This document shows, piece by piece, positions 3,277 through 23,365 of a stretch of DNA of 36,467 nucleotides (its first letter is position 1; each line of letters starts with the position of its first letter). The DNA is from Lacunisphaera sp. Its GTDB lineage: Bacteria; Verrucomicrobiota; Verrucomicrobiia; Opitutales; Opitutaceae. The notes under the pieces were generated by a model that saw nothing but the letters and a program-made list of their open reading frames with translations, did no database searches and was not told where the DNA came from. The stretch covers positions 1 to 36,467 of the forward strand of contig JAQSDJ010000077.1 of NCBI GenBank assembly GCA_029945855.1, written 5' to 3'. The translations under genes were made by a program, and so were the position numbers.

Positions 3277-3354
3277 GCCGCCCGCCCGGCGTCATTCCGC
3301 CCGGCGAAAACTTTCAGGTTTGCTTCGCCGCCCGCCCTGCCACTGTGACCGATT

Positions 3355-4383: not shown

Positions 4384-4398
4384 CCGGCCGCCGGCCGG
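4384..4398 (+). other. GC-rich hairpin directly after a stop codon
   Basis: CCGGCC, GCC, GGCCGG: a perfect 6-bp stem with a 3-base loop that begins right after the TGA of the FkbM gene. No T-run follows, so it is not a classical intrinsic terminator. It may protect mRNA 3' ends or may be chance in GC-rich DNA. Confidence 0.3.
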
Positions 4399-4515
4399 AC
4401 CGCGCGGCCGAGCGACAGAATAGCTCTCGACGAACGCGCCTTCCCTCATTGATGTCCTGTCCATGTTTGCCCACGTCTCCCTCATTGGCCCCGGTAAACC
4501 CGGTGGCAGTCATGA

Positions 4516-4677
4516 GCCCCAGCCTTGGTTCATCGTGCGGCCGATGGATTGTTCCGGGCGCCGGTCAACGCTGATTCGCGGCCGACTGGGCGCCTGAACC
4601 TGATGCGATCCACCGACAACTCCGCGATGGCCGTGGATCCGATTTTCAAGGCCCTGGCCCTCCGCCGCTCCACATGA
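4516..4677 (+). pseudogene. Unidentified 3' coding remnant in the 4384-4673 gap
   Basis: The 290-bp gap before the first chimeric glycosyltransferase is not featureless. An open frame runs from 4516 and ends LNLMRSTDNSAMAVDPIFK, ALALRRST, stop. From about 4590 on, the codons have the strong G/C third-position bias of real genes here. Its TGA (4675-4677) overlaps the next ATG (4674) as ATGA, the coupling used elsewhere in this cluster. A second open stretch in another frame starts at ATG 4463 (MFAHVSLIGPGKPGG) and stops at 4597; a frameshift could once have joined the two. I do not recognise the family. It could be the end of a decayed gene or a small unrecognised protein starting at ATG 4603. 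Confidence 0.4.
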
Positions 4678-7328
4678 GGCATTACTGCACCAGTCTTGAT
4701 CAGCACAGCCTGACCCGCGGTCTGGCATTGCACCATTCCCTGGTCCGGCACGCCGGTGCGTTCGAGCTGGTCGTGCTCTGCCTGGATACGGAAGCGGAGG
4801 CCGCCCTGCGGCGAAAAGAAATTCCTCAGATCCGCCTGCTGGCGGTGGCGGAATTGACCGGCAGCTATCCAGCCCTCGCCGCCGCCCGGGCCGACCGGAC
4901 CGGTCGGGAGTTCCATCTCACGTGCAAGTCCTGGCTGATGCTGCACCTGCTGCCGTCGATTCCCACGGGAGAACTCCTCACCTACCTCGCCGTCGACTTG
5001 TATTTCTTCAGCTCGCCGCAACCAGCCTATGACGAGATCGGCGTCGCCTCGATCGCCATCACCCCCCATCGTTTCCCCGCGACGCTCGTCCATCTCGAAT
5101 ACCAAGGAAAATTCAACCCCGGCTGGGTGTCGCTGCGGAACGACGCCACCGGCCGGGCCTGCGCCGCAGACTGGGCGACGCAGTGCGCCGTCTGGTGCTT
5201 CCAGCTTCCCGAGCCCCGCCGCTATGCCGATCAGAAATATCTGGATGCTTGGATCACCCGATTCCCCGGCACCATCAGCATCACCCATCCCGGCGTCAAT
5301 GCCGCCCCTTGGAATATCGGGGACCGCGCGATCACCGCGAACAGTCAGGGGCCGCAGATCAACCAGTCCCCGCTGATCTGCTATCACTTTTCCGGCCTGA
5401 CGCATCTCGACCGACAGCTTTATGATCCCGGCCTGCACCGGTATGGCGTCGCGCCAACCCCCGAACTGCGCGAGCTTATCTACCGCCCCTATTTACGGCG
5501 GCTCGGCAGCGACGACACCCTGCCCGCGCCCGATATTGTGCCCCCCGCCGCCGGCGACGATCCTCGCAGCGGCGCCGTGATTCCCCAGCTGTTGGAGCGC
5601 GTGCTCACCGCCGAACAAAATCGTGACCGCTGCCTGCTGGCCCTGGAGCGGACCCGCGCTGACGCCCGCCTGGTCATCGAGGATGATCGCGCGGCCAGGA
5701 TCGAACGGGACCGTTACACGCGGGAGGTCGAGCTGGAGCGCGACCAGCATCGGCAGTCATTTTTCGACACGAGGCAAAAGCTGCTGGCCTTTCATGATGA
5801 CCTGGTGCGCAACGTCGCCTACATCAAGACGCTCCACGCCGAGGCGGACCTGGTCAAGCAGGTCGCGGTGGACCGGGAGACCTACATCGCCAACCTCAAC
5901 GAGCAACTGGCCCGGCGGGAGACCGGCGGCGCCGGGCCGGATCTCGGGGAGTTCGGCCAGGCCTTCGCCCCGCACTGCCGCGAGCTTCGCCGCGTCCTGG
6001 TGCTCAAATACCATCCGCGCCTGCTCCCCTCAATCCTCTGGTGGTCCACCCTGGGCATCAGCGTGGAAGTGCTGGCCAGCCCGCCCGACATGGTCGGCCC
6101 GCCGCGCGGCCCGGTGCAGTTCTGGGGCGAATCCTTGTGGGACTGGCTGGGCGGGCTCAACACCCTGTTCAATGAGCAGGGCTATCTGCTCGCCAACCCC
6201 GACATCGCCGGGGCCATCGCCCGGGGCGAGGTGTCCTGCGGCTGGGATCATTTCCAGCGGTTCGGCCAGCGCGAGGGGCGGATCACCGGCACGCCGCATT
6301 TCCGCGCGGGTTTCGCCGATGCCGATGCCATCGCCTTCGACAGCGCGGATGCCGCGCCGCTTCTTCCCTGCCTGATCGGACGCCTCCAGCCGCAGCACCG
6401 GCTTTTTGTCAGCAGCTGTTTCAATCCGGCCACGCTCTGGTTGCCGGCGGAGACGGCCCGCACCATCGTGTTTGGCGACCTGTTGTGCTGTCCCCGAGCC
6501 TGGCTCGGGCCGCGCCTCCCGGCCGCGCTGCCGGTGGCGCACCGGCCGCCGCTCACCGCGGACCAGATCTACCCGGCCACTCCGGCCCAGCAAGCCGTGT
6601 GGCCGAAAATTTCCGTGGTCACCGTCAGCTTCAACCAAGCCGCCTATCTCGAGGAAACCATCCGCTCCGTGCTGGACCAGAACTATCCCAATCTGGAATA
6701 CCTCATCGTCGACGGCGGCTCGACCGATGGGTCGGTGGAGATCATCCAACGATACTCCGACCGCGTCGCCTGGTGGGTGAGTGAAAAGGACGGAGGGCAG
6801 GCCCAGGCACTGAACAAGGGCTTCGCCAAGAGCACCGGCAGCATCCTGACCTGGCTGAACAGCGACGACCGGCTCGCCCCGGGCAGCCTGTTCACGGTGG
6901 CCCAGCAATTCCTGCTCCATGCCCCCGACCTGGTGGCCGGTCGCTGCGCCCGGCTGACCGACCGAGAGCCGCAACCCCATCACCTCCATCGCAGCGTGCT
7001 GTCCTTCGGCCAGATCCAACCCCTGCCGCTCCCCGAGCTGCTCGACCTCGACCACTGCTGGTTGCAAGGCTGGTTTTTTCACCAGCCCGAAGTCTTCTTC
7101 TCCCGCCGAATATTTGAACGGGCCGGCGGCCGGCTGCGGGAGGACCTCCATTACAGCATGGATTACGACCTGTGGGTCCGGATGGCCCGGGCCGGCGCGA
7201 AGATCCTGCCCTTGCCGGAAATTCTCGCGCTCTTCCGCGTGCATCCGAAGCAAAAAACCGGCGGGGCCGACGTGCCCTACCTGCCCGAGCTCCGCGCGGT
7301 CAACGCCGCCCTCCGGACGCCAAGCTGA
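4674..7328 (+). CDS. Chimeric glycosyltransferase: GT8-like N-terminus, coiled coil, PDV module, GT2 C-terminus
   Basis: 884 aa with four parts. Residues 1-280 begin MRHYCTSLDQHSLTRGLAL and contain TYLAVDLYFF, a DxD-like strand, as in GT8-like enzymes whose N-terminus reads 'hYcT.fd..yl.rgl.L'. About 310-415 is charged and heptad-like, a predicted coiled coil ending in DDLVRNVAYIKTLHAE. About 430-640 is a module containing FNEQGYLLANPDIAGAI, then WDHFQRFGQREGR (about 500-536) and [20 protein letters not shown]. About 646-884 is a GT2 domain: [52 protein letters not shown]. The last three parts are paralogous to the protein at 10150. Likely a cytoplasmic enzyme adding two sugars; donors unknown. 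Confidence 0.85.
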   Translation: MRHYCTSLDQHSLTRGLALHHSLVRHAGAFELVVLCLDTEAEAALRRKEIPQIRLLAVAELTGSYPALAAARADRTGREFHLTCKSWLMLHLLPSIPTGELLTYLAVDLYFFSSPQPAYDEIGVASIAITPHRFPATLVHLEYQGKFNPGWVSLRNDATGRACAADWATQCAVWCFQLPEPRRYADQKYLDAWITRFPGTISITHPGVNAAPWNIGDRAITANSQGPQINQSPLICYHFSGLTHLDRQLYDPGLHRYGVAPTPELRELIYRPYLRRLGSDDTLPAPDIVPPAAGDDPRSGAVIPQLLERVLTAEQNRDRCLLALERTRADARLVIEDDRAARIERDRYTREVELERDQHRQSFFDTRQKLLAFHDDLVRNVAYIKTLHAEADLVKQVAVDRETYIANLNEQLARRETGGAGPDLGEFGQAFAPHCRELRRVLVLKYHPRLLPSILWWSTLGISVEVLASPPDMVGPPRGPVQFWGESLWDWLGGLNTLFNEQGYLLANPDIAGAIARGEVSCGWDHFQRFGQREGRITGTPHFRAGFADADAIAFDSADAAPLLPCLIGRLQPQHRLFVSSCFNPATLWLPAETARTIVFGDLLCCPRAWLGPRLPAALPVAHRPPLTADQIYPATPAQQAVWPKISVVTVSFNQAAYLEETIRSVLDQNYPNLEYLIVDGGSTDGSVEIIQRYSDRVAWWVSEKDGGQAQALNKGFAKSTGSILTWLNSDDRLAPGSLFTVAQQFLLHAPDLVAGRCARLTDREPQPHHLHRSVLSFGQIQPLPLPELLDLDHCWLQGWFFHQPEVFFSRRIFERAGGRLREDLHYSMDYDLWVRMARAGAKILPLPEILALFRVHPKQKTGGADVPYLPELRAVNAALRTPS

Positions 7329-7337
7329 CCCGCCTCC

Positions 7338-8336
7338 ATGACGCCTTCACCCGATTCATTCACCGCCTGGCTCGCCGGACTCCACAAGTGGCACGGCTGG
7401 CTGCAGCTCTCGGCCGAGCGGGCCTACATGCACGCCGAGGAGGAATACAACAGCCACTATGGGATCGCCGCCGTCGAGATGCGCGAAGGCGAGGGCTTCT
7501 GCCGCCTGCTGCAAACCCATCAGGTGGACACCAGCGGCCCGGCGCTCGAGATCGGTTGCGGCACCGGCTACCTCTCCTATGGTCTGGCCCGGCACTATCC
7601 CGGCCCCGACCTCCTGATTACGGATCCGTCCCCCACCTTCCTGCGGTTGACCCAGGGCCTGTTCGGCCCCGACTTCGCCGGCACTACCCGCCGGCACTAT
7701 GCCGTGTTTAATGCGGACGACATCGCGCTCCTGCCCGCCGGGATGTTTTCGGTCATCGGCCTGCGCTCCACCCTGCACCACATCCTGAAGGTGGAGGATT
7801 TCATCGCGGCCTGCGCCCGGGCGCTCCGGCCCGGCGGCGCCCTTTTCATGGGCTCCGAGCCATGCGCCACCGGCTTTTTGCTCATGGCCGCGGTGGCCCA
7901 ATCCATCCCCCATGCGCTGAAGGCGGCCGGCATCGAGATGCGCCCGGAGTGGAGTTACAAGCTCAACGACTTCACCAGCACCGTGCAGTTCTGCTGCAAC
8001 CGGGACATCGACAAAACTTACGGCGAGGACAAACACTTTTTCGACCCGTCCGAACTGGGCCGGCTGGGTGAGGCCCATGGCCTGAAACTGGAGTTCCTCC
8101 CCACGGGCTCCTTCCAGGATTTCGCCCCGCCCTACAGTTATGCCTTTCACTGCTTCAGCAGTTTTTTCCTGATGTATATGCAGTTCTGCATGCGGTTCGA
8201 TGACGCGTTCATGGAGCAAATCCGCCAGCACCTGCGGCCCCAGCTCAAGTATATCGACGACTGCTACCGCAGCCATGCCGGTCCGGCAGTCAGCAGTATT
8301 TTTCTCCTGAAGAAGCCCCGGATCGGGACCGGTTGA
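7338..8336 (+). CDS. Class I SAM-dependent methyltransferase
   Basis: 332 aa, starting 9 bases after the preceding stop. Motif I is LEIGCGTGYLSYGLARHY near 72-90, followed by the acidic strand end LLITDPSP and by the post-motif region ALRPGGALFMGSEP. This is a Methyltransf_11/25-type fold with N- and C-terminal extensions; the C-terminal 100 residues are rich in Phe/Tyr (YSYAFHCFSSFFLMYMQF) and may pack against membrane or acceptor. The tight spacing to the chimeric glycosyltransferase suggests it methylates the glycan that enzyme makes. Acceptor unknown. Confidence 0.8.
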   Translation: MTPSPDSFTAWLAGLHKWHGWLQLSAERAYMHAEEEYNSHYGIAAVEMREGEGFCRLLQTHQVDTSGPALEIGCGTGYLSYGLARHYPGPDLLITDPSPTFLRLTQGLFGPDFAGTTRRHYAVFNADDIALLPAGMFSVIGLRSTLHHILKVEDFIAACARALRPGGALFMGSEPCATGFLLMAAVAQSIPHALKAAGIEMRPEWSYKLNDFTSTVQFCCNRDIDKTYGEDKHFFDPSELGRLGEAHGLKLEFLPTGSFQDFAPPYSYAFHCFSSFFLMYMQFCMRFDDAFMEQIRQHLRPQLKYIDDCYRSHAGPAVSSIFLLKKPRIGTG

Positions 8337-8340
8337 GGCT

Positions 8341-8404
8341 GCCGGCCCCAGGCCGGCTCGTTCGCCAGAACCTCATTGCCAGCCAGTCCTTGTTTTCGGC
8401 TGGC
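8341..8404 (+). other. Two inverted repeats in the 144-bp gap before the sugar dehydrogenase
   Basis: GCCGGCC-CCA-GGCCGGC (8341-8357, 7-bp stem, 3-base loop) just after the methyltransferase stop, then GCCAGCC with a 13-base loop and GGCTGGC (8378-8404). The second loop contains TTGTTTTC but no T-run follows the stem. Possible transcription pause or mRNA end structures; no promoter I would defend. Confidence 0.3.
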
Positions 8405-8480
8405 CTGTGGCCACATAACTCCTTCCTTTGAAAGCACCGTCCGCTTGCCGGACCGGTCACTCCATCTCCCAATCCCTTCT

Positions 8481-9839
8481 ATGATTCAAAATGTCTCGGT
8501 CATCGGACTCGGCAAACTCGGCGGCAGCATGGCCGCCGGTATGGCTTCGCGCGGCCTCAATGTCATCGGCGTGGACGTGAACCGTCACGCGGTCGAGGCG
8601 GTCAACGCCGGCAAGGCGCCCGTGCAGGAGACCGGCCTCGGCGAGATGATCGCCGCCAACCAGGAGCGCATCCGCGCCACCCTGAGCACCGAGGAGGCCG
8701 TGCTCGGCAGCGACATCAGCTTCGTGATCGTGCCCACCCCGAGCGACGAGCGCGGAGCCTTCACCCTCCAATACGCCAGGTTTGCCTTCAAGTCGCTGGG
8801 TCAGGCCCTGAAGAAGAAAAAGGGCTATCACGTCATCGTGCTCACCAGCACCGTCCTGCCTGGCGCCACCCGCCACGGCCTGCTGCCCATCCTCGAGCAG
8901 GAATCGGGCAAGAAGTGCGGCCCTGACTTCGGCCTGTGCTACAACCCCGAGTTCATCGCCCTCGGCAGCGTCATCCGCGACTTCCTCAACCCCGATTTCT
9001 ACCTGCTCGGCGAATCCGACCCGCGGGCCGGTGACCTGCTCGAGCAGGTGCACCGCCGCGTCTCCCAGAACAATGCCCCCGTGAAGCGCATGAGCCTGGA
9101 GAACGCCGAGCTGGCGAAGATCGCCGTCAACAGCTACGTGACGATGAAGATTTCCTTCGCCAACATGCTGGCAGACTTCTGCGAGCACCTGCCCGGCGGC
9201 GACGTGGACGTGGTCTCCGACGCCCTCGGCATGGATAAGCGTATCGGCCGCAAATACCTCACCGGCGGCTTCGGTTTCGGCGGTCCCTGCTTCCCCCGCG
9301 ACAACGTCGCGCTCAATTTCATGGGCGGGCAACTGGGCGTGGACAGCAGCCTGCTCAAGACCAACGACGACTACAACCGCGGCATCTCCAAACGCTATAT
9401 TGAGAAGCTGCAGGCCGATCTGCCCAAGGGGGCCAATGTCGCGGTGCTCGGCCTTGCCTACAAACCGTTGTCCCATGTGATCGAGGAGTCACCGGGTATT
9501 TACCTGTGCAGGGCACTTTCCGAAGCTGGCTACCGCGTCATCGGCCACGACAACCTTGCCGCCCCTTACGCCGAGACGGCGCTAAAGATGAGCGCCCTGG
9601 TCACTGATTCCCTGGATGAAGCCCTCAAGGATGCCGATGTCGTGCTCGTGACCACGACCGACAAGTCCTACACCGCGCTGACAGCCGACCACCTGCTGCG
9701 CGGCCGGCCCGCCATCACCGTCATCGATTTCTGGCGCTGCCTCAAGCATCTCGCCGCCGACCCGCGCATCCGTTACGTGCCCATCGGCCTCTGCCGCGAC
9801 GAAACCGCGGCGGCCGGCCTCAAGCCCCTTTGGTCATAA
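8481..9839 (+). CDS. Nucleotide-sugar (UDP-glucose/UDP-ManNAc type) 6-dehydrogenase
   Basis: 452 aa from the ATG at 8481; 35 further in-frame codons upstream (MPASPCFRL...) lack family similarity and were left out. NAD-binding loop VIGLGKLGGSMAAGMASRG at the N-terminus, VIVPTPSDERGAF, the middle-domain helix with VNSYVTMKISFANML, and the catalytic cysteine C270 in GFGFGGPCFPRDN. The C-terminal Rossmann domain carries VAVLGLAYKPLSHVIEESPG. The family oxidises the C6 hydroxyl of a nucleotide sugar twice, giving a uronic acid donor. The TSTVLPGATR strand and the catalytic block are intact, so it should be active. Which sugar is oxidised cannot be told from motifs alone. Confidence 0.88.
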   Translation: MIQNVSVIGLGKLGGSMAAGMASRGLNVIGVDVNRHAVEAVNAGKAPVQETGLGEMIAANQERIRATLSTEEAVLGSDISFVIVPTPSDERGAFTLQYARFAFKSLGQALKKKKGYHVIVLTSTVLPGATRHGLLPILEQESGKKCGPDFGLCYNPEFIALGSVIRDFLNPDFYLLGESDPRAGDLLEQVHRRVSQNNAPVKRMSLENAELAKIAVNSYVTMKISFANMLADFCEHLPGGDVDVVSDALGMDKRIGRKYLTGGFGFGGPCFPRDNVALNFMGGQLGVDSSLLKTNDDYNRGISKRYIEKLQADLPKGANVAVLGLAYKPLSHVIEESPGIYLCRALSEAGYRVIGHDNLAAPYAETALKMSALVTDSLDEALKDADVVLVTTTDKSYTALTADHLLRGRPAITVIDFWRCLKHLAADPRIRYVPIGLCRDETAAAGLKPLWS

Positions 9840-9914: not shown

Positions 9915-10079
9915 CTCTTTGGCCGATACAACGCCCGCTGCGGTGGTCGCCCGGGGGACTGCCCGGTCACGGAGGAAGTAAGCGACCGCCTGTTGCGCCT
10001 CCCGTTCTTCAACGCCATGACCCCGGAACAGCAGTAGAGGGTCATCGCCGCGCTCCACGAATTCACCCCGGACGCCTAG
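9915..10079 (+). pseudogene. 3' remnant of a DegT/DnrJ/EryC1/StrS sugar aminotransferase (WecE-like)
   Basis: The 310-bp gap between two genes reads, in one frame, [57 protein letters not shown]. 'GG..GDCPVTE.VSDRLLRLPF.N.(M/L)T.EEQ..VI.A' is the C-terminal signature of PLP-dependent sugar aminotransferases such as dTDP-4-amino-4,6-dideoxygalactose transaminase. Everything upstream, including the PLP lysine and the rest of the fold, is missing, and an amber codon at 10035-10037 interrupts what is left. It is a scar of a lost amino-sugar gene. Homology is recognisable from about 9921 on. Confidence 0.75.
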
Positions 10080-10085
10080 TCACCC

Positions 10086-10123
10086 CGGGCCGGCGGCTGA
10101 TGCGAGACTTTACAACCGGCCCG
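10086..10123 (+). other. Inverted repeat upstream of the second chimeric glycosyltransferase
   Basis: CGGGCCGG (10086-10093) and CCGGCCCG (10116-10123) form an 8-bp perfect stem with a 22-base loop, ending 26 bases before the ATG at 10150. It could structure the leader of the message or be a chance GC-rich match. Confidence 0.25.
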
Positions 10124-10149
10124 TAGCATGGACATCTTTGTCGGGTTAC

Positions 10150-13080
10150 ATGGCTTCCTCTCCCTCCCGCACTCCCTACCTTTCCGTCGTCGCAGCCTCC
10201 CGCAATGACGACCACGGCGGCGACCCGCTGGTCCGCACGCAGATCTTCATCAGCACCTTCGCCCGGCAGTGCGAGAAATACCAGCTGCCGGCCGAACTGA
10301 TCCTGGTGGACTGGAATCCGGTGGAAGGCCGGCCCGGCCTGGCGGGAGTCCTGCAGTTGCCGCCGGAGGCCTCCTATTGCCAGGCCCGGGTCATTACCGT
10401 GCCCGCGGTGCTGCACCATCGTTTTAAATACGCCAGCCAGCTGCCGTTCTTCCAGATGATCGCGAAGAACGCCGGCATTCGGCGGGCCCAAGGACGGTTC
10501 GTCGTGGCCACGAACATCGACATCATTTTCTCCGATGAACTGATGCGCCACATCGGCAGGAAGCAGCTGGATCCGCACAAGATGCTCCGGGTGGACCGCT
10601 ACGACATCCACCGGGACATCCCCGCGGGGTTCTCCGTGGACCAGATCTTGGATTATGCGTGGACCCATCCCGTGCGCACCAACCGCCGGCTGGGCCCCTT
10701 GGAATTGGTGGAGCACCTCTACGGGGACGAGCTGTTCAAGCGCCACTGTGTGCCCGGCCCGGAGGCCGGCGGACTGGTCGAGGGCATCGCCGTGACCGAG
10801 GAAGGCGGCGACTGGACGGTGCGTCCGCGGCGGGACACGCCCGTCGCGAATCTCCACACCAACGCCTGCGGCGATTTCACCCTCCTCTCCCGTGAGGGCT
10901 GGCAGGCCATCCACGGCTACGCGGAATTCGCCGGCTATTCCTTCAACATCGACAGCTTTGGCGTGGCGGCGGCCCATTACGGCGGCTTTGAGGAAGTGGC
11001 CCTCCTGCCCCCGTGCGTGTGCTTTCACATTGAGCACAGCCTCGGATCCGGTTGGACGCCCGAGGGCGAAAAGAAACTTTTCGCCCGGCTGCAGGAAAAC
11101 AAAATCCTCAATCCCGAATGGGAGGTCCTGAATCCCCTGATGGAAGACATGCGTCTGGGGGAAATGCCGACGGCCGTGAATGATCCGTCCTGGGGCCTGG
11201 CCGATTTCGAGCTGCCCGAGGAGCCGCTCCTCCCCGGCCGCATCGCTCCTTCCCCGTCGCATCCCCGGACCTACGAGGCCCCGCGCGGCCTGACGGTCAG
11301 CGCCCTGTTGCCGCAGTTTGACCTGGACCGCCTCACCGTCTGGCAGGAGCGGCTGAATTCGCCCACCAAGAAAATCGCCCGCCTCAACGAACTCCTGCAG
11401 ACCTCGGACAAGGACCGCGCGGAGCGCCTCAAGACCATCGATTATTATCAGGACAAGCTGCAGACCGCCTACGCCGACCTTGAGCGAAACGTCGCCTACC
11501 TCAAGACCCTCGAGGCCGAGATCGCCGCCCACGTCAAGCTCGCCGCCGAGCGCGACGCCCAGATTGCCCGTCTCTCCGCCGAAGTGAACCGCCTGAGGCT
11601 CGCCGCCGAGGCGTCCGGCCGGGGGGAACTCCAGACCCAGCTGGAACCGCAAGGCCGCCTGTGGGAGCGCTACGGCCGCCACCTCCGCCGGCTCGTGGTC
11701 GCGAAATACCACCCGGGCCTGCTGCCGCAGATCCTCTGGCTGGCGGCCCACGGCACCATCATCGAGGTATTCGCGGCGCCGCCGGGATTGGCGCAGAGCC
11801 TGGCCGACGCGCCGAAAAAACCCCGCATCCCGCGCGGCGTGGTTCATTTCTGGCAGGAGGATGTGTGGACCTGGCTCAGCCAACTCGACAGCCTCTTCAA
11901 CGAGAAGGTCTACCTGCAGGCCAACCCCGATGTCGCCGACGCCGTGGCCCAGGGACTGCTGCCGAGCGGCTGGGACCATTACCAGCTGTGGGGCGTGCGC
12001 GAACACCGCCTCACCGGCAACCCGGCCTATGATACCGGACTCGCGGAGGTGGACGCCGTGGCCTTCGACAGCTCGGACGCCCCGCATCTTCTGCCCTGCC
12101 TGATCGGGCGCCTTCAGCCGCATCACAAACTGCTGATCGGCAGTTATGACCCGGCGCAGACCTGGCTGCCGGCCGACTCGAGCCAGACCACCCTCGCCCC
12201 CGGCCTCCTGTTTTGCCCCCGGCCCCCGGCCCAGTGGATGGGGCCGCACCAGCCGACCAACGAGCTGCGCATCAAGTGGCCGCTCCTGCGCGCGCAGGAC
12301 GCCTACCCCGCGGTCTCCGCGCAAAACGCGCCCTGGCCCATCATCTCCGTGGTGACCGTCAGCTACAACCAGGCCGCCTATCTCGAGGAGACTATCCGCT
12401 CGGTGCTGGACCAGAATTATCCCAACCTGGAATACATCATCGTCGATGGCGGCTCCACGGACGGCTCGGTCGAAATTATCAAGAAATACGCCGATCGGCT
12501 CGCTTGGTGGGTCAGCGAAAAGGACGGCGGACAGTCCGAGGCCCTGAACAAGGGTTTCCAGAAGGCCACCGGCCGCATCCTGACCTGGCTCAACAGCGAC
12601 GACCGGCTCGCGCCCGGCAGCCTGTTCACCGTCGGCCAGACCTTCCTGCTGCACAACATCGACATGGTCGCCGGCCGGTGTGCGCGGGTGGCAGACCTAG
12701 AGCCCAAGCCCCACCATGTCCACCGCTCCTATCTTCCGCTCGGTCAGATCACCGGGCTGCGTCTGGACCACCTACTCGACCTTGAGGGCTGCTGGCAGAA
12801 GGGCTGGTTTTTCCACCAACCGGAGGTCTTTTTCAGCCGGGAAATCTTTGACCGCGCCGGCGGCCAGCTGCGTGAGGATCTTTACTACAGCATGGATTAT
12901 GATCTCTGGGTGCGCCTGGCAAAGGCCGGGGCGAGGATCTTTGCGCTGCCGGAGATCCTCGCGATTTTCCGCGAACACCAGAACCAGAAGACCGGCGGCG
13001 CGCACCTGCCCTTCCTACCCGAACTGCGCGCCGTCAACCAGGCCCACCGCGAGTCCGCCCAACCCGCTCAAACCAAGTGA
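10150..13080 (+). CDS. Chimeric glycosyltransferase: GT2-like N-terminus, coiled coil, PDV module, GT2 C-terminus
   Basis: 976 aa from the ATG at 10150 (an in-frame TTG lies four codons earlier). Residues 10-260 are a GT-A-like domain: [36 protein letters not shown] near 115-130 in the usual DxD place, and [19 protein letters not shown]. About 410-490 is a coiled coil with [16 protein letters not shown]. About 510-730 is the module with [28 protein letters not shown] and [20 protein letters not shown]. About 732-976 is a GT2 domain: [53 protein letters not shown]. From the coiled coil on it is a paralogue of the protein at 4674, while the N-terminal domain differs. Its TGA overlaps the next ATG (TGATG). 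Confidence 0.87.
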
Positions 13081-15003: not shown

Positions 15004-17808
15004 ATGGCCCTTTACCTCGCTCATACCCTCGTTCTGCTTCTGGCTTCCTTCGGGGCGGCCCGGTCGCTGTTGCGCGGCGGGCTGGAGCGGCTGCTCGCGA
15101 TGGGCCTCTTGGCTTGGGGCAACCTCGTGGTCACCAGCCTGCTGCTTTCCTGCCTGCACCAACTGGGCGAACCGGCCTGGTTTTTCCGCACCTCCCTCGG
15201 CTTGGCCGGCGCGACTTGGCTGCTGCTGCGTCGCCTCGCACCGGAACCCGCACCCGCCGCGGGGGAAACCGATGGCGACCGGCCGAGCCCGCTCCTCCTC
15301 GCGGCTTTCATCCTCACACTGGCCCCGATCGCCTACGCCAGCATCCGCATCGCCGGCACCTACCTGCCCAACAATTACGACTCGCTCGCCTACCATCTGC
15401 CGCGGGCGATGTTTTATCTCGGCCAGGACAATCTCGCCCACTTCGACACGGGCAACCCGCGGCAGATCTACTTTCCATTCAACTACAACCTGCTGCAGCT
15501 CTTCAGCCTCATCTACAGCCCGCCGCTGCAGGTGGTGAACTTTCTCAATCTTGCGGCCTGGGCCGCGGCGGGCTTGGCCGTCTATCGCCTGTGCCGCCTC
15601 TGTGCCTTCCACGCCAATGCCGCCCTCATCGCCACGTGGCTGGCGGTCACGGCGACGCAGGTGCTCGCCCAGGCCACGGCGACCACGAACGACCTGCCCA
15701 CCGCCGCCGGCCTGCTGGCCGCGCTGGTGTTCGCCCTGCGCTGGCGACAATCCCGGCAGACCCGCGATGCGCTGCTCGCGGGCCTCGCGGCCGGGCTGAC
15801 GGCCGGCTCCAAGCTTACGGTGGTCTTCTTCGGCCCGGCCGCCGCGCTGATCGTGCTTGGCCTGGCGTGGCAGCACTGGCGGCGCGGCGAGACCCGTGCT
15901 TTCCTCACTAGCGTGCGGGCTTGGCTCGTCCCGGCGTTGCTGGCCGGCGCGCTCGCCGCTCCGTTCGCCCTGATCAACATCGCGGAAAAGGGCGAGTGGA
16001 TCAACAAGACCTACGACTTCACGCTGAACCGGCCGTTCTCCTTCGCCAGCGCGCTGCAGACCGGCGCGGCCTACCTGGTGCAGCTCTTCCTTGAGCCGCT
16101 GCATCGCTTCACCTTCGACCTGCAGTTCACCGCCCAGCTGAACGCCTGGGGGGCGCGCACCCTCTTCCCGCATTGGAACGAGGCCTATGCCTTTTCCCCG
16201 CTGTATCTTTTCCCTCCCGACCTGAACGAGGATCATGTCTGGTTCGGCTTCACCGGCCCGGCCATCCTGCTCGCGGCGGTTTTCTGCCTGGTGCGCTGGC
16301 GCCGCCTGCCGGCCCCCGCCGTGTGGCTGGCCGCGGTCGGCCTCGGGTGGTTCATCACCTACTTCCTGCTGAACAAGTGGTCGCTCTACAACCAGCGCTA
16401 CTTCGTGCCGGCCATCCTGGTGATGAGTCCTTGCGTTGCCGCCGTGCTGCAGGCCGGCTGGGACCAGCCGCGGCCCGGCCGCCTCCTCCGCAACCTCGTG
16501 GCCGGCCTCGTGCTGTGCACCCTCTGGCTCACGGGCGTTTACCTGTTCCAGAACACCAGCCGGCCCTACGCCCCGCTGTGGGCCGGTGATCCCGCCCCGC
16601 CCGCCCTGCCCACCCTGCCGCCGTTGATGGTGCAGCGCCTCGCCGGCCAGTCCCGTATCAACATTCACACCACCGACGGTAACGAGCGCATCTTCCTGCT
16701 CATGACGCACGGCCGGGGCCAGCGCTTCACTTCCTTTGCCCGGCCCGACCCGGCCGCCTACAACGTCTATTCGCACTGGGGTTTCGTCCGCAAGGTCGCC
16801 TACAGCAACATCGAGCAGCTCTCCTCCTACACGATCGTGGCTGTCCCGACCAAACGGACCGCGGGCGTCGAATTCCTCGGCACGATCAACTCGGGCCAGC
16901 CCGCGCTGGATTATTACGGCCTGGTGCCCCATGCCGACCGGGTGGCCGCCGGTGACGGGAACCGGAACGTGCTGGTCATCTTCTCCTACGCGCCGCGTGA
17001 GCCGAACCGCTACATGCACCTGCGCCTTGACGTCGTCGGCCTCAACGCGCCGGACCGGGCCCGCCTGCTTGTCGGCGTCGATTACACCGACGGGACGAGC
17101 GAAACCCTCGGCACCTTCACCGCCACCGGCCAGGCCCCCGCCTCCGTCACCCGGCCCTTCCGCCGCTTCACCATCCGCGTGGAGTCGGCCGAAGACGGCA
17201 AGGAACTCGGCGCCATCAACCTGCCGTATCTGCCGCGCGAGCTGCCGGGTGAGATCGAGGCCCCGATGAATCCCGCAACCATCATGGTCGATGAGCTGGT
17301 CACCGCCGAACCCCGGTCACTGGTCGTCACCGAGGGCCTCGGCGTCCCCGAGGGCCCCTACGCCCAGTGGAACCTGCCCCTGGTGCGCTGGGCCAAGGCT
17401 CCCGTGGTGCGCCTCGGGCTACCCGCCATCGCCGGGCTGGAGCAGCTCGACCTGTCCTTCAGTCTGCGGGCGCAGGCGCGCGACGCCGCGGCCGTCGACG
17501 TCGTGTTCAACGGTGAGCTGGTGGAGACCTGCCTGCTGCTGGGCCGCAACGCGTGGTCGGACCACCAGCTCACCCTCCGCCCCCGCCCGGGCCCGAACGT
17601 GATTGAGTTCCGCAACGTGTTCGTCAGCGGTGCGCCGGATTGGCTGGATTACCTCGCGCGTTATCCGGACGTGAAGGCGTATGTGCTCTCGCAGGGCATC
17701 CCCCTTGAGCAGGGCGCCCGCGCGCACTACGAGATGTTCGGCAAAAACGAGACCCGCACGCTGCACTATCAGCGCCGGGTCGAGCCGCTCGCCGGCGAGC
17801 CCTTCTAG
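15004..17808 (+). CDS. Giant polytopic membrane protein, GT-C (GT39-like) N-terminus with extracytoplasmic C-terminal module
   Basis: 934 aa. The first half has many hydrophobic segments and a loop with YLPNNYDSLAYHLPRAMFYL near 121-140, where GT39-like polyprenyl-phosphate-sugar transferases keep their catalytic acid. The second half (about 545 on) is predicted beta-rich: FTATGQAPASV, VVFNGELVETCLLLGRN (about 834). It ends with DWLDYLARYPDVKAYV and HYEMFGKNETR (about 879-919), the module seen in the chimeric glycosyltransferases. Likely transfers a lipid-linked sugar outside the membrane. It is paralogous to the protein at 20678, which is 13 or so residues longer at the C-terminus; here TAGTAG interrupts that tail. 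It starts one base after the preceding stop. Confidence 0.75.
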   Translation: MALYLAHTLVLLLASFGAARSLLRGGLERLLAMGLLAWGNLVVTSLLLSCLHQLGEPAWFFRTSLGLAGATWLLLRRLAPEPAPAAGETDGDRPSPLLLAAFILTLAPIAYASIRIAGTYLPNNYDSLAYHLPRAMFYLGQDNLAHFDTGNPRQIYFPFNYNLLQLFSLIYSPPLQVVNFLNLAAWAAAGLAVYRLCRLCAFHANAALIATWLAVTATQVLAQATATTNDLPTAAGLLAALVFALRWRQSRQTRDALLAGLAAGLTAGSKLTVVFFGPAAALIVLGLAWQHWRRGETRAFLTSVRAWLVPALLAGALAAPFALINIAEKGEWINKTYDFTLNRPFSFASALQTGAAYLVQLFLEPLHRFTFDLQFTAQLNAWGARTLFPHWNEAYAFSPLYLFPPDLNEDHVWFGFTGPAILLAAVFCLVRWRRLPAPAVWLAAVGLGWFITYFLLNKWSLYNQRYFVPAILVMSPCVAAVLQAGWDQPRPGRLLRNLVAGLVLCTLWLTGVYLFQNTSRPYAPLWAGDPAPPALPTLPPLMVQRLAGQSRINIHTTDGNERIFLLMTHGRGQRFTSFARPDPAAYNVYSHWGFVRKVAYSNIEQLSSYTIVAVPTKRTAGVEFLGTINSGQPALDYYGLVPHADRVAAGDGNRNVLVIFSYAPREPNRYMHLRLDVVGLNAPDRARLLVGVDYTDGTSETLGTFTATGQAPASVTRPFRRFTIRVESAEDGKELGAINLPYLPRELPGEIEAPMNPATIMVDELVTAEPRSLVVTEGLGVPEGPYAQWNLPLVRWAKAPVVRLGLPAIAGLEQLDLSFSLRAQARDAAAVDVVFNGELVETCLLLGRNAWSDHQLTLRPRPGPNVIEFRNVFVSGAPDWLDYLARYPDVKAYVLSQGIPLEQGARAHYEMFGKNETRTLHYQRRVEPLAGEPF

Positions 17809-17853
17809 TAGGTCTTTCGCCACCTGCGGCTGGAGGGTTTCCGGAAACCATGA
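17809..17853 (+). other. In-frame leftover of the conserved C-terminal tail after tandem TAG stops
   Basis: Continuing the frame of the 934-aa protein past TAG TAG (17806-17811) gives VFRHLRLEGFRKP and then TGA. The paralogue at 20678 ends MYRNIRLEGFRAP, TGA. In both, that TGA overlaps the next gene's ATG as ATGA (17850 and 23362). The ancestral gene therefore most likely ran to 17853 and was shortened by stop mutations, or the two amber codons are read through. Confidence 0.65.
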
Positions 17854-18995
17854 ACACGATCCCGCCCCCGCCCGCCCCGGACCGCAACGCCTACATCGAC
17901 ACGTTGCGGGGCTGGAGCATCGTGGGCGTCGTCTGCGTGCATTTCGCCGGCAGCTTCGTGACCACCGACATCCATGCGTGGAGCCCGTCTTTTTGGCTGG
18001 GCCTCACCCTGAACCAGGTGTTCGGTTTCGCCGTCCCGCTCTTCCTTTTTCTTTCCGGCCTGCTGGCCGGTGCCTCGTCCAAGGTGGTCCCGCTGGGCGA
18101 CTACTATCGCGCCCGGCTCTGGCGGATCGGGTTCCCCTATGCGCTCGCCAGCCTCGCCTCGTTCTTCCTGCTCAACCATTATGCCACTTGGCAGGCGCTG
18201 CCGGATATCGGGGCGAAATTCACGTGGCTCTGGCAGCACGTGTTCTTCTACGGCGTCGAGCCCACGCTCTATTTCATCCCGCTGATCCTGCAGCTGTATT
18301 TCCTGCAGCCGGCCCTCAAGGCGCTGCCGCGCTGGCTCAACCGACTCGTTCCCGCGCTCAGCCCCGCGCACGGCGTCCTGCTCCTCACCGGCCTGCTGCT
18401 GGCCTTGCATGTCACCCTCGGGCTGCTGTGTTACCACGGCACCCTAAATTATTATGTGTGGGGCCGGCCCAACGCGCTCTTCTGGGTCTTCTATTTTTTT
18501 GCCGGGCTCCACTTCCGCACGCTCGCCGGCCTGCTGTCCCGGCGGACCCTCGCGATCAGCGCCGGACTCACGCTGCTGGTCGCCGCGGTGACCATGGCGT
18601 GGAACGGCCTCCAGCTCGCCGACCCCACGCTGGTGGGGCTGAATTTTGAGCGCAACCGGCTCGACTTCGCCTACGTCCGCCCGGAAATGCTCATCTATGA
18701 CCTCGCGATGGTCGCCGGCCTGGCCACCGGGATCGCCCTGGGCTGGGCTCCGCGCGCCGGACTCGTCGCCTACCTCGGACGCTACACCCTGGAAATCTAC
18801 CTCTGGCACATCCTCGTTCTTTATTTTGGAGTCTGGCGCTACGCCGGGGCGCTGGATTCCTGCCGGCAGCTGCCGGAGATGATCGTCCTCATCTGTCTTG
18901 GCACCGCCGTGCTGATCGCCCTCGTCACCGACGGTTTTCACCGGCTGCGGGCTTTCATTCGCGACCACCGCTTGGTGCTGGTCAAGTCCAGCTGA
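17850..18995 (+). CDS. Acyltransferase-3 family membrane O-acyltransferase
   Basis: 381 aa, polytopic. Near the N-terminus YIDTLRGWSIVGVVCVHF places R20 and H31 in the R-X10-H arrangement of this family, followed by VPLFLFLSGLLAGAS and a positively charged YYRARLWRIGFPYA. Near the end, YTLEIYLWHILVLYFGVW is the usual last helices. Such proteins acetylate or otherwise acylate surface sugars (OafA-like) from the membrane. The ATG overlaps the ancestral stop of the preceding membrane protein gene, so the pair was probably translationally coupled before the TAG mutations. Acyl donor and acceptor unknown. Confidence 0.88.
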   Translation: MNTIPPPPAPDRNAYIDTLRGWSIVGVVCVHFAGSFVTTDIHAWSPSFWLGLTLNQVFGFAVPLFLFLSGLLAGASSKVVPLGDYYRARLWRIGFPYALASLASFFLLNHYATWQALPDIGAKFTWLWQHVFFYGVEPTLYFIPLILQLYFLQPALKALPRWLNRLVPALSPAHGVLLLTGLLLALHVTLGLLCYHGTLNYYVWGRPNALFWVFYFFAGLHFRTLAGLLSRRTLAISAGLTLLVAAVTMAWNGLQLADPTLVGLNFERNRLDFAYVRPEMLIYDLAMVAGLATGIALGWAPRAGLVAYLGRYTLEIYLWHILVLYFGVWRYAGALDSCRQLPEMIVLICLGTAVLIALVTDGFHRLRAFIRDHRLVLVKSS

Positions 18996-18999
18996 CCGA

Positions 19000-19075
19000 C
19001 GCCGGGCCGGCGGTCCCGGCGCTTAAATCGCTGTGGACATGCCCTGTGAAAACAGGCTCTTTGGTGGGCCAAAGA
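19000..19075 (+). other. Three consecutive hairpins in the 108-bp gap before the GT2 at 19104
   Basis: CGCCGGG with an 8-base loop and CCCGGCG (19000-19021); CCTGT-GAAA-ACAGG with a GNRA-type tetraloop (19043-19056); and TCTTTGG-TGGG-CCAAAGA, a 7-bp stem, one base further on (19058-19075). No T-run follows. Closely packed perfect stems could be a structured leader or a pause site for the gene downstream. The last two are not merely GC-rich. Confidence 0.4.
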
Positions 19076-19103
19076 CCGTCCTTCCTCACCCGTCCACGTC
19101 TCC

Positions 19104-20054
19104 ATGGCCCTTCCCAGTCCTCCCCGCACCCCGAGCCTCGCGGTCGCCATCCCCTGCTACCAGGAGGAGAAGACCATCGCGCAGGTCGTCGCCGACTTCA
19201 AACGCGAGCTGCCCGCCGCCGTGGTGTATGTGTTCGACAACAACTGCACCGACCGCACGGCCGAGTTCGCCCGCGCCGCCGGCGCCATCGTCATCCGCGA
19301 GAAACGCCAGGGCAAGGGACACGTCGTCGCCACCATGTTCGAGGTGGTCCGCGAGGACATCCTCGTGATGGTGGACGGGGACGGCACCTACGATCCCACG
19401 GCGGTCCACCGGCTGCTCGCGCCTATTCTGCAGGGCGACGCCGACATGACGGTCGCCGCGCGCCTGCAGCAATACAGCGACAAGTCGTTCCGCAAGTTCC
19501 ATGTGGCCGGCAACCAGATGGTCTGCTGGATCATCAACAAGATTTTTCACGCGGACATCTCGGACATCTTTTCCGGCTACCGCGCCTTCACCCGGGAGTG
19601 CATGCTCGCCATCCCGATCACCTCGCGCGGCTTCGACGTGGAGACCGAGCTGACGGTGCAGAGCCTCTACCGCGGCGCCGTCCTCCGGGAGATCGAGGCG
19701 CCCTATGGCGAGCGCCCGGCGGGCAGCTTCTCGAAGCTCCGCACCCTCCCCGACGGCATCCGCGTGCTGCTCCGCCTCTTTCTCCTGATGCGGGCCTACA
19801 AGCCGCTGACCCTGTTCGGTTCCCTCGCGATCGCCTGCTTTCTCGCCGCCCTGGCCTTTGCCAGCCTCCCGCTGATCGAGCTGGTCGAGTATCACCGGGT
19901 CATCAGCCGCGCGAGCGCGATCATCGCCATCTCCGGGTTCATGCTCGGCAGCCTGTGCCTCGCCCTCGGCCTGGTGCTGAGCTCGGTCAACCAACGCCTG
20001 CTCGAGCTCGAGCGCGTCGTCATCAAGCGCATCCAGAATTCCCGGCCGGATTGA
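19104..20054 (+). CDS. GT2 glycosyltransferase, dolichyl-phosphate-mannose-synthase-like, membrane-anchored
   Basis: 316 aa. GT-A domain: LAVAIPCYQEEKTIAQVV at about 13-30, VFDNNCTDRT, GKGHVVATMF, and the DxD site VMVDGDGTYDP near 91. SDIFSGYRAFTRECM and GFDVETELTVQ are typical of this subgroup. Two hydrophobic segments (about 233-255 and 270-292) follow, so the catalytic domain faces the cytoplasm. Family members move a sugar from a nucleotide donor onto polyprenyl phosphate, which the GT-C-like proteins of this cluster could then use. That link is inferred. A 481-codon frame overlapping it from 19046 is a shadow. Confidence 0.85.
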   Translation: MALPSPPRTPSLAVAIPCYQEEKTIAQVVADFKRELPAAVVYVFDNNCTDRTAEFARAAGAIVIREKRQGKGHVVATMFEVVREDILVMVDGDGTYDPTAVHRLLAPILQGDADMTVAARLQQYSDKSFRKFHVAGNQMVCWIINKIFHADISDIFSGYRAFTRECMLAIPITSRGFDVETELTVQSLYRGAVLREIEAPYGERPAGSFSKLRTLPDGIRVLLRLFLLMRAYKPLTLFGSLAIACFLAALAFASLPLIELVEYHRVISRASAIIAISGFMLGSLCLALGLVLSSVNQRLLELERVVIKRIQNSRPD

Positions 20055-20067
20055 CGCGACTCCCCGC

Positions 20068-20652
20068 ATGGGCACGAAGGATTTCAACGCGCTCGACCTG
20101 TTCATCTGCCGCTGGCGCTCGGGCATCGTCCGGCGCGCGCTCCGGCCCGGCGCCACCCTGCTGGACTTCGGCTGCGGCCACCAGGCGCTGTTCCTGCAAT
20201 CCGTGGCCCCGGCGCTCACGCGGGGCATCGGCCTCGACTACGACGCCAGCCCGGCCCGGCCCGCGGCGAACCTCGAGATCCAGCAATTCCACTTCACGGA
20301 CCGCTTTGCCTTTGCGGACGGCACGTTCGACCACGTCAGCATCCTGGCTGTGCTCGAGCACATCCCGCTCGACCAGGTGGACGTCCTGTTCCGCGAGTTT
20401 CATCGCATCCTCCGGCCCGGCGGCAGCGTGCTGCTCACCACGCCGACGCCCGCCTCGCGGCCGCTCCTCGAGTTCCTCGCCTTCCGGCTGAAGATCATTT
20501 CCGGCCCGGAGATCGCCGACCACAAGCACTACTGGAACCGGGCGGATATCCAGGCTCTGGCGGCGCGGGATGGTTTCACACTGGAGACCTACCAAACTTT
20601 CCAAGTCGGCCTGAACAGTTTTGCTGTTCTCCGAAGACTTCCCGTTACCTAG
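20068..20652 (+). CDS. Class I SAM-dependent methyltransferase (small)
   Basis: 194 aa, starting 13 bases after the previous stop. Motif I reads LLDFGCGHQALFLQSV near 31-46, then IGLDYDASPA, the motif II area FDHVSILAVLEHIP and post-motif ILRPGGSVLLTTPTP. This is a compact Methyltransf_11 domain with little extra sequence. Its close linkage to the membrane GT2 suggests action on the same glycan or lipid-linked sugar. Acceptor unknown. Confidence 0.82.
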   Translation: MGTKDFNALDLFICRWRSGIVRRALRPGATLLDFGCGHQALFLQSVAPALTRGIGLDYDASPARPAANLEIQQFHFTDRFAFADGTFDHVSILAVLEHIPLDQVDVLFREFHRILRPGGSVLLTTPTPASRPLLEFLAFRLKIISGPEIADHKHYWNRADIQALAARDGFTLETYQTFQVGLNSFAVLRRLPVT

Positions 20653-20677
20653 CGATTGCAAGGACGCGCCCTGCAAC

Positions 20678-23365
20678 ATGGACATCTTCCTTGCCCATAG
20701 TCTCGGTCTAATCTGGATGTCTCTCGGTGCGGCCCGGTGCCTGACGACCCGGCTGACAGACCAGCTCCTCGCAGCTGCGCTGCTCGGCTGGGGCAACCTC
20801 GTGGCGACCAGTTTGCTGCTCTCGCTGGCTCAGCGGCTCGGAGATCCATTGTGGAATCTGGGCCTTTCCGGGCTGCTCGGAGGATTGACCTGTCTGCTGG
20901 TGGCCAGACTGCCGCGTGAACCGGCCGAAGCTGAGACGTCGAGAGACCTGCCCCATAGTCTGTTGCTCAGCGTGTTCGTGGTGACCATTGCGACTCTAGC
21001 CGTCGGCGGTGGAGCGATCGCCTACACCTATCAGCCGAACAATCCAGATGCGCTCACTTGGCAGTTGCCGCGAGCCCTGTATTACTTGGGGCAGGGCAAT
21101 CTAGCTCACTTCGACGCGGTTGACCTCCGGCAGACCCACCTGCCTTTTAATCTTAGTCTGCTACAATTCCCGGCTCTGGCCTACGCCGCTCCGTTGCAAT
21201 GTCTCAACCTCTTCAATCTAGTCGCATGGATGCTCGCCGGCATGGGCGTCTACCGGCTTTGCCGCTTAGCCTCGTTCAGCGCGAATGCTTCCCTCGTCGC
21301 CTGCTGGCTGGTGCTCACCGCCCCGCCGACGATCGCCCAAGCCGTTTCGCTGACCAGCGAACTCCCGGCCGGCGTCGCCCTAATTTGTGGGCTGATATTC
21401 GGATTGCGGTGGCAACGGGCTCGACACGCGCGCTATGCCGCTCTAGCGGGTCTCGCGCTGGGTTTGGCCGCGGGTAGCGATTTGAACGTCATGCTCGGCG
21501 GCCTAATGGCGACCTGTATGTTTTTCGTTCAGGCGCGCCAAGCGGCACCCGCCGGGCACCGCACTTGGTGGGGCGCGGCCGGGTTAACGGGTGCCCTCGT
21601 GCTGCCGTTCGCCTTAATCAATTTTGTGCAAAATCCCGGCTGGATTCGCACCTATTTCGCCTTCGTGGCTGATCAGCTGCAGAACCCCGCCGGCCCGACC
21701 TGGTTGGGATTGTGGCCGCTCCCTGCAACCCCTCCACCGTTGTTCGCCCTGAATGAAAACTGCGTCGGTTTCGGTTTCACGGGCCCCTTGTTCCTGCTAG
21801 CGGCCATCTGGTTCATAATTCGGCGGCGACAACTGGCCTGTGCCGCTGGCTGGCTCCGATGGATTGGGCTCGGCTGGTTTTTCATCACCAGCCTTCTGCT
21901 GTGGGGTGGACTGGCTGGTGCCAGAAATTTTCTGCCGGTGCTGCTCGTGCTGAGCCCGAGCGTAGCCGCGCTTATTGAATCGGTCCGGATCAGCCGTTGG
22001 ATTATTCTGGTGGTAGCACTATCCTCCGTCTGGTCTTCGGGTATCTATTTGCTCCGGAATAACAGCCGACCGCTGCTCCCTCTGCTGAACTCCGCCTTCG
22101 CTCCACCAGCGCTACCGACCCTGCCCCTACTGTTGGAACATCACCTGTCTCGCCAATCTCGCATCAACATCGACACCGATGGGGTCGATGAGAGCATCTT
22201 GCCATTCATGGTGCAGGGGCGGCACCAGCATTTCACGGCCGACCATGAGCTCGTGATCGGTGCCTACAATCTCATGTCCCGCGCCACCACCTCGCGGAAC
22301 GCAGCTTACCTCCAACCCACCCGTCCGCCTACCTACACTCTGATTTCCCTGCCAACCAAACCCACCGCCGGGGTGGAATTCCTCGGGACAATCGGACGCG
22401 GGCCCGCCGCGCGCGATTACTTCGGAGTTGCACCCGACGCGGGCCGGACCTCCCCGATCACGACGAACCGGAACGTGCTGGTCACCCTGTATCACGGAGA
22501 CAAGCCAGCCGCACCAGAACGGATCAGTTTGCGGGTGGCAGGGCTTAACTCCGAGGATCACGCCCGGTTGACCGTGCTCGCGGCGGATCGCGCTGGCGGC
22601 AGCGTCCCCGTAGCCTCCTTCGACGCCGATGGCACCGCCACGGTCCCGATCACAACGCCTTTCCACCAACTCATTTTCCGGGTGGTCGGCACCACTACCG
22701 GCGCTGAGCTGGGCTCCACCGCCATCGCCTACCTGCCCTCCGAGGAAAAACCCGGCAAGCCCCTTGACGCCAGTTTGCCGACCGACACCAGTTCAATTTT
22801 TGTGACCGATCTGGTGCTGACCAAAAACCCGCAACCCATTTCCGTCGACGGCCTCCTACCGGTTGAAGGACCGTTCCCCCAATGGGACCTTCCCTATCTT
22901 CGCTGGCAACGGCAGCCCGCCGCCGTGATCACGATCCCTCCGACGGGCGGATTGGACCGTCTTCAGCTCTCCTTCAGCGTCCGCCTGAACGTGCGCCGGA
23001 AGGCCGCCCTCGATGTGCTTTTCAACGGGCAGCTGGTGCAAAACTACCGCATCGACGATCACACCGCCTGGCTGGACCAGACCCTCGAACTTGCGCCACA
23101 ACCGGGTGCGAACGTCCTGGAATTCCGGGATGCCCCCCTCAACATCGAACCCGACTGGCTGGACTACCTCGAACGATATCCGGACGTAAAAAAACATGTG
23201 ACCACCACCCGCGTCTCCCTCGAACAGGGCGCGCGGGAACATTACGAGACGCATGGTCGCGCGGAAGGCCGCACCATCCAGATCATCATGAAGCCGGAGC
23301 CGGCGCCCGATGGGTATTATTTCATGTATCGCAACATCCGCCTGGAGGGCTTTCGGGCACCATGA
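20678..23365 (+). CDS. Giant polytopic membrane protein, paralogue of the one at 15004
   Basis: 895 aa from the ATG at 20678 (MDIFLAHSLGLIWMSL matches the paralogue's start; 19 upstream codons overlap the methyltransferase gene and were dropped). Same layout as 15004: hydrophobic first half, beta-rich second half, then DWLDYLERYPDVKKHV and HYETHGRAEGR (about 826-867) and the intact tail YRNIRLEGFRAP. The GT-C loop reads YQPNNPDALTWQLPRALYYL: the Asp is kept, but the Tyr before it is Pro and the His of 'YHLPR' is Gln. Codon use up to about 22850 is less G/C-rich than in the neighbours (CTA, TTA, CTT are common). It may have a changed or lost activity. The stop overlaps the next ATG (ATGA). Confidence 0.75.
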   Translation: MDIFLAHSLGLIWMSLGAARCLTTRLTDQLLAAALLGWGNLVATSLLLSLAQRLGDPLWNLGLSGLLGGLTCLLVARLPREPAEAETSRDLPHSLLLSVFVVTIATLAVGGGAIAYTYQPNNPDALTWQLPRALYYLGQGNLAHFDAVDLRQTHLPFNLSLLQFPALAYAAPLQCLNLFNLVAWMLAGMGVYRLCRLASFSANASLVACWLVLTAPPTIAQAVSLTSELPAGVALICGLIFGLRWQRARHARYAALAGLALGLAAGSDLNVMLGGLMATCMFFVQARQAAPAGHRTWWGAAGLTGALVLPFALINFVQNPGWIRTYFAFVADQLQNPAGPTWLGLWPLPATPPPLFALNENCVGFGFTGPLFLLAAIWFIIRRRQLACAAGWLRWIGLGWFFITSLLLWGGLAGARNFLPVLLVLSPSVAALIESVRISRWIILVVALSSVWSSGIYLLRNNSRPLLPLLNSAFAPPALPTLPLLLEHHLSRQSRINIDTDGVDESILPFMVQGRHQHFTADHELVIGAYNLMSRATTSRNAAYLQPTRPPTYTLISLPTKPTAGVEFLGTIGRGPAARDYFGVAPDAGRTSPITTNRNVLVTLYHGDKPAAPERISLRVAGLNSEDHARLTVLAADRAGGSVPVASFDADGTATVPITTPFHQLIFRVVGTTTGAELGSTAIAYLPSEEKPGKPLDASLPTDTSSIFVTDLVLTKNPQPISVDGLLPVEGPFPQWDLPYLRWQRQPAAVITIPPTGGLDRLQLSFSVRLNVRRKAALDVLFNGQLVQNYRIDDHTAWLDQTLELAPQPGANVLEFRDAPLNIEPDWLDYLERYPDVKKHVTTTRVSLEQGAREHYETHGRAEGRTIQIIMKPEPAPDGYYFMYRNIRLEGFRAP

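Follow-up and report, generated by a model that had tools for sequence, protein, structure and literature searches.

Tandem in-frame TAG codons, found in a single assembled genome, opposite a conserved Tyr-Tyr pair near the end of a glycosyltransferase gene

Introduction

In one Opitutaceae assembly, a membrane glycosyltransferase gene ends at two consecutive TAG codons, and beyond them the same frame runs on through a tail that an intact paralogue shares. Is the protein shortened at these codons, are they read through, or are they errors of the assembly?

The locus and its tandem stop

The window (the whole stretch of DNA analysed, 36,467 nucleotides) is contig C77 of genome G000, an assembly of 5,008,298 bases in 330 contigs that is 99.14% complete and presumably metagenome-derived. 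The features needed here are as follows.

15004..17808, + strand: PMT_2-like membrane glycosyltransferase gene, 934 codons to the first TAG (ORF; PF13231, 38.6 bits, cut-off 26.1)
17806..17811, + strand: tandem TAG TAG on an ancestral Tyr-Tyr pair (sequence; sense codons at 30/30 other distinct homologous sites)
17812..17850, + strand: in-frame tail VFRHLRLEGFRKP, 3′ of the stops (sequence, relatives, predicted last beta strand)
17832..17837, + strand: GGAGGG within the tail, putative Shine-Dalgarno motif of the next gene
17850..18995, + strand: downstream acyltransferase gene, 381 aa, intact (ORF; PF01757, 106.9 bits, cut-off 31)
17851..17853, + strand: ancestral stop, a TGA that overlaps the following ATG (sequence; same position in the relatives read)
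20678..23365, + strand: intact paralogue with the same tail (sequence, full-length alignment)

The N-terminal membrane half of the glycosyltransferase is a member of the PMT_2 family (PF13231), scoring above the gathering cut-off. The protein differs from that family in its long C-terminal beta domain, which matches no Pfam or NCBIfam model at E 0.01, and its match to NCBIfam NF047440 is far under the cut-off of that model. Glycosyltransferases, a sugar-nucleotide dehydrogenase and the acyltransferase make up the neighbourhood; loci of this kind vary between strains. As in the window (15004-23365), several relatives hold at least two tandem copies of this glycosyltransferase type per locus (L007, L089-L092, L096). 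Homologues are present in 20 of 252 family genomes and 6 of 21 genus genomes, and the close homologues that lie in named records come from Opitutaceae-type assemblies.

The preliminary description had reported TAG TAG, then VFRHLRLEGFRKP in the same frame, and lastly a TGA lying on the next ATG, with a matching tail in the paralogue, and the sequence agrees on both counts. The TGA and the acyltransferase ATG at 17850 share the letters ATGA; in the paralogue, MYRNIRLEGFRAP is followed by a TGA at 23363-23365 that likewise shares ATGA with an ATG at 23362.

Relatives and the age of the change

We compared 32 sources and, leaving out duplicate tails and alignments that stopped short of the site, obtained 31 distinct homologous sites. 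Stops are found at one of these, that of the window, whereas conservation in relatives would be expected of programmed readthrough. Opposite TAG TAG, the other 30 sites have Tyr-Tyr (18), Tyr-Phe (10, including the paralogue), Arg-Phe (1) or Phe-Phe (1), so that the first position is Tyr in 28 and the second is Tyr in 18 and Phe in 12. The nearest relative (L022, which belongs to genome G018; 90% identity at the protein level) reads TAT TAT, as does L027, and TAC TAC is found at ten sites. At both codons, the TAT of the nearest relative is a single base from TAG. Given the tyrosine pair in relatives and the one-base distance of each codon, the two ambers occupy the place of two ancestral tyrosines, an ancestry that the preliminary description missed.

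That description had also allowed that relatives might all lack the tail; 30 of the 30 other distinct sites carry it. Because of this, and because the paralogue and the TAG-bearing protein align over their full length (42% identity), the likeness of the two tails is not due to chance.

Nucleotide identity to L022 is 90.1% for the gene, 85.3% for the last 100 codons 5′ of the stops and 87.2% for the 13 tail codons, among which three differ synonymously and one non-synonymously. The tail thus appears free of any sign of long neglect, 13 codons being too few to prove selection or to date the change, and part of it may be conserved for its role in starting the next gene. With sense codons in the relatives and one non-synonymous change in 13, the stops are private to this genome and look recent; if so, the tail would still read well because little time has elapsed. 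These data agree with an earlier proposal, in which recent point mutations removed the tail and little drift has followed.

Expected effects of termination

If TAG TAG is present in the cell, RF1 would terminate there and the protein would lack its last 15 residues. We modelled the fold of the C-terminal 390 residues with the stops read as Tyr (mean pLDDT 68; 74-94 in blocks of the last 150 residues). The last beta strand of the model comprises residues 377-387 of the folded part and starts at the second stop, so truncation would be predicted to remove the last strand of the C-terminal beta domain. A search at E 0.1 found no solved structure with a sequence relationship to this domain. Fold comparison gave matches to carbohydrate-binding modules and other beta-sandwiches; with low TM-scores and a model of only fair quality, we claim no family assignment from them.

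The acyltransferase would start 38 nt past the stops in place of overlapping one. Loss of the tail had been thought to break the coupling of the two genes. The ATGA overlap does give way to this gap, but GGAGGG remains, 12 nt from the acyltransferase ATG, so that coupling would be weaker and not necessarily absent. In the tail region compared, L024 and L026 have no GGAGGG.

Could strand loss or uncoupling of the acyltransferase usefully alter a surface polysaccharide, so that the double stop was fixed by selection? The locus, with its glycosyltransferases, sugar-nucleotide dehydrogenase and acyltransferase, is of the strain-variable kind that would suit such a history. However, TAG TAG recurs in no second genome across the 31 distinct sites, and tandem stops are seen behind 8 of the 547 sampled ORFs (2 of the 112 ending in TAG), so a double stop at a gene end needs no special cause. 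We consider selected truncation very unlikely.

Other genes interrupted by TAG

A sample of 816,934 bases (16.3% of G000) yielded three more genes in which an in-frame TAG is the sole visible fault.

L200:18996, − strand: ffh, TAG at residue 375 (TCG in G018)
L191:6123, − strand: D-isomer 2-hydroxyacid dehydrogenase, with the NAD-binding domain spanning the TAG (188.9 bits)
L198:17791, − strand: secreted-type protein with a PEP-CTERM-like end 3′ of the TAG (19.7 bits, Pfam cut-off 20.7)

The last of these is the weakest case, its match being just under the Pfam cut-off. The ffh product is 86% identical to that of G018 over 410 residues that extend to either side of the TAG, and the codon directly 3′ of the TAG is ATG. 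The gene is single copy in G000, the other match being partial and under the cut-off. Across the genus, 17 of 21 genomes have ffh matches, 18 in all, and a stop is found only in that of G000, the 17 others being stop-free. In the family, 216 of 252 genomes have a match, and there is no stop among the matches listed, all of them stronger ones from genomes other than G000. One congener (G004) is unusual in that two of its ffh matches are full length and exceed the cut-off (612 and 561 bits), perhaps through mixed binning.

Normally ffh is essential, and no cell would be expected to survive on an Ffh truncated within its signal-binding domain. Its TAG is therefore a false stop, or UAG is suppressed, or translation may restart at the following ATG to give a two-piece Ffh.

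Several scans bear on how special TAG is among such faults. The first ab initio scan was too strict, giving no candidates in G000 and one in G018. The second gave 39 in G000 (16 TAA, 14 TGA, 9 TAG) and 63 in G018. By eye, most of these resemble adjacent genes that share a frame, the second one starting shortly 3′ of the stop. The scan gives negative scores to short tails like that of the glycosyltransferase and misses them. When candidates with an ATG no more than 18 codons from the stop were removed, a filter that also drops ffh and the PEP-CTERM gene, 3 were left in G000 (1 TAA, 1 TAG, 1 TGA) and 9 in G018 (1 TAA, 1 TAG, 7 TGA). By eye, we counted only the dehydrogenase as broken; the TAG of G018 at L116:15585 could be another case. 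Homology lists of stops contain 19 entries for G000 and 11 for G018, including wrong-frame ORFs and stretches 5′ of true starts. All entries other than ffh and the glycosyltransferase site were set aside, on the reading of six alignments and otherwise by eye. Among indel-type faults, there is one possible frameshift in G000 and none in G018, which argues against an indel-rich assembly.

Is the UAG codon read through?

The preliminary description offered readthrough of the ambers as its other explanation. UAG would then be decoded usefully, by a suppressor tRNA that escaped recognition or by a near-cognate tRNA, for instance one for tyrosine, giving full-length glycosyltransferase, Ffh and other proteins. 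Three observations invite this reading. Tyr at UAG would give back the sequence of the relatives at the glycosyltransferase site; the TAG-bearing ffh is the only one in the genome; and all four broken genes are broken by TAG, none having been recognised with TGA or TAA as its only fault, a judgement made by eye, not a program count, over 16% of the genome.

The uniformity of the stop is less telling than it seems. With this codon usage, single substitutions would be expected to yield TAG in 60% of nonsense changes, giving four-of-four TAG a P value of 0.13, and we reject it as proof of suppression; roughly 1.6e-4 false bases per site would yield four such genes. Nor is the replaced residue constant across TAG sites, being Tyr and Tyr here and Ser in ffh.

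Tests of the decoding machinery and of stop usage also argue against readthrough. ARAGORN, run over all 63 RF00005 matches of this 99.14%-complete genome, found no tRNA with a CUA anticodon, one partial match yielding no tRNA. RF1 (prfA) is present and intact, scoring 455 bits, over the cut-off, with its PVT and GGQ motifs. TAG is a common terminator, found at the end of 112 of 547 sampled ORFs in G000 and of 154 of 841 in G018. There is no clear enrichment of back-up stops behind TAG: the next 10 codons contain one in 26/112 cases, compared to 58/330 for TGA and 21/105 for TAA. Back-up stops are reported not to be under selection in eubacteria (PMC6764699), so this result says little. We also compared codons with G018 in 139 matched ORFs (48,037 codons). 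Of 1,109 Tyr codons, two face a TAG, both of them at this site, and a role for TAG as a genome-wide Tyr codon is rejected.

Taken with the TAG in the sole ffh, these results leave natural amber readthrough improbable at this site. A broader version, in which an Opitutaceae-like lineage decodes UAG at useful efficiency with no recognisable CUA tRNA, essential genes such as ffh included, and keeps TAG as an ordinary terminator, the Tyr-Tyr codons having drifted to TAG TAG under this cover, seems to us slightly more improbable still.

The phylum does offer a precedent for a recoded stop. Tiny verrucomicrobial endosymbiont genomes are reported to recode UGA to Trp, and UAG stays a stop (PMC8204192). 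Candidatus Organicella resembles the present case in its phylum and in that its genome assembly has genes interrupted by a stop codon. It differs in that its codon is UGA, its genome is that of a 158-kb endosymbiont and a matching tRNA is present, whereas here the codon is UAG, the genome measures 5 Mb, RF1 is present and no matching tRNA was found. The literature that we searched listed no natural amber readthrough in free-living Verrucomicrobia. If the ambers are real and read through, they would constitute natural amber suppression in a phylum for which that literature listed only endosymbiont UGA recoding.

Cause of the change

We judge TAG TAG to be, very probably, a private and very recent nonsense change in one assembled genome, by which a Tyr-Tyr pair kept by orthologues would have become two amber codons. 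In kind the change is ordinary. Belinky et al. 2021 (PMC7918605) describe in-frame stops in bacterial genes as widespread and short-lived, with a substantial fraction expected to be artefacts. The glycosyltransferase stops belong to this known kind: sense codons have become stops, frame and tail are kept, and the state is short-lived. They differ in that the study focuses on stops shared by species, whereas here two adjacent codons bear the same change in one genome.

Two causes are about equally likely. A false consensus sequence, that is, an assembly error, has a little less than an even chance, and a fresh, real lesion is nearly as plausible; the ffh TAG tips the balance slightly toward error. 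Errors make no distinction between essential and dispensable genes; given one in ffh, a false stop at the glycosyltransferase site is quite likely. A sequence error is also what the preliminary description had named as counting against its reading.

Two points count against a private nonsense change. All four TAG-broken genes would fit suppression also, and the same substitution twice, three bases apart, is improbable for independent events, whether errors or mutations, and calls for a linked cause. A linked cause for the doubled substitution was sought as a template for the 13-mer at the site, and none was found, the window holding no second copy at up to two mismatches. TAGTAG itself occurs six times in the window, five of them on the opposite strand, against 1.17 expected.

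If the stops are artefacts, false stops in a 99%-complete assembly can reach even ffh, and claims of gene loss from single assemblies need read support. The ffh site offers a cleaner test than the glycosyltransferase site, as a cell should not easily live with truncated Ffh.

The tRNA array and other tRNA-like sequences

Contig C109 of the same genome carries an array of 24 tRNA genes by ARAGORN (L063, 2888-8876). The gaps are mostly filled by further degenerate tRNA-like units ending in CCA, and many T-loops read TGCGA or TGCAA, not TTCGA. The array includes a tyrosine tRNA and would be suspect if UAG were read through. We searched the array for a suppressor, taking 41 units under a loose definition and each CTA in 2801-9000. 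One unit (3021-3108) has CTA on a weak, 4-of-5 stem; it overlaps a tRNA-Gly (3073-3146) and is taken as chance. Adjoining the array are a TROVE/Ro60-like gene (6268-7707), two sub-threshold YrlA-like RNAs and an RtcB-like ligase gene (9988-11937), a combination that suggests an RNA-repair island.

ARAGORN calls over the whole of G000 include no tRNA-Asp (GTC), which is probably due to an assembly gap; the only unit with a GTC loop is a degenerate one of the C109 array (L063:3956-4032). At about 200-280 of L078 (contig C221), a tRNA-like stretch with a CCA end and a partial RF00005 match, without an ARAGORN call, is possibly a tRNA remnant.
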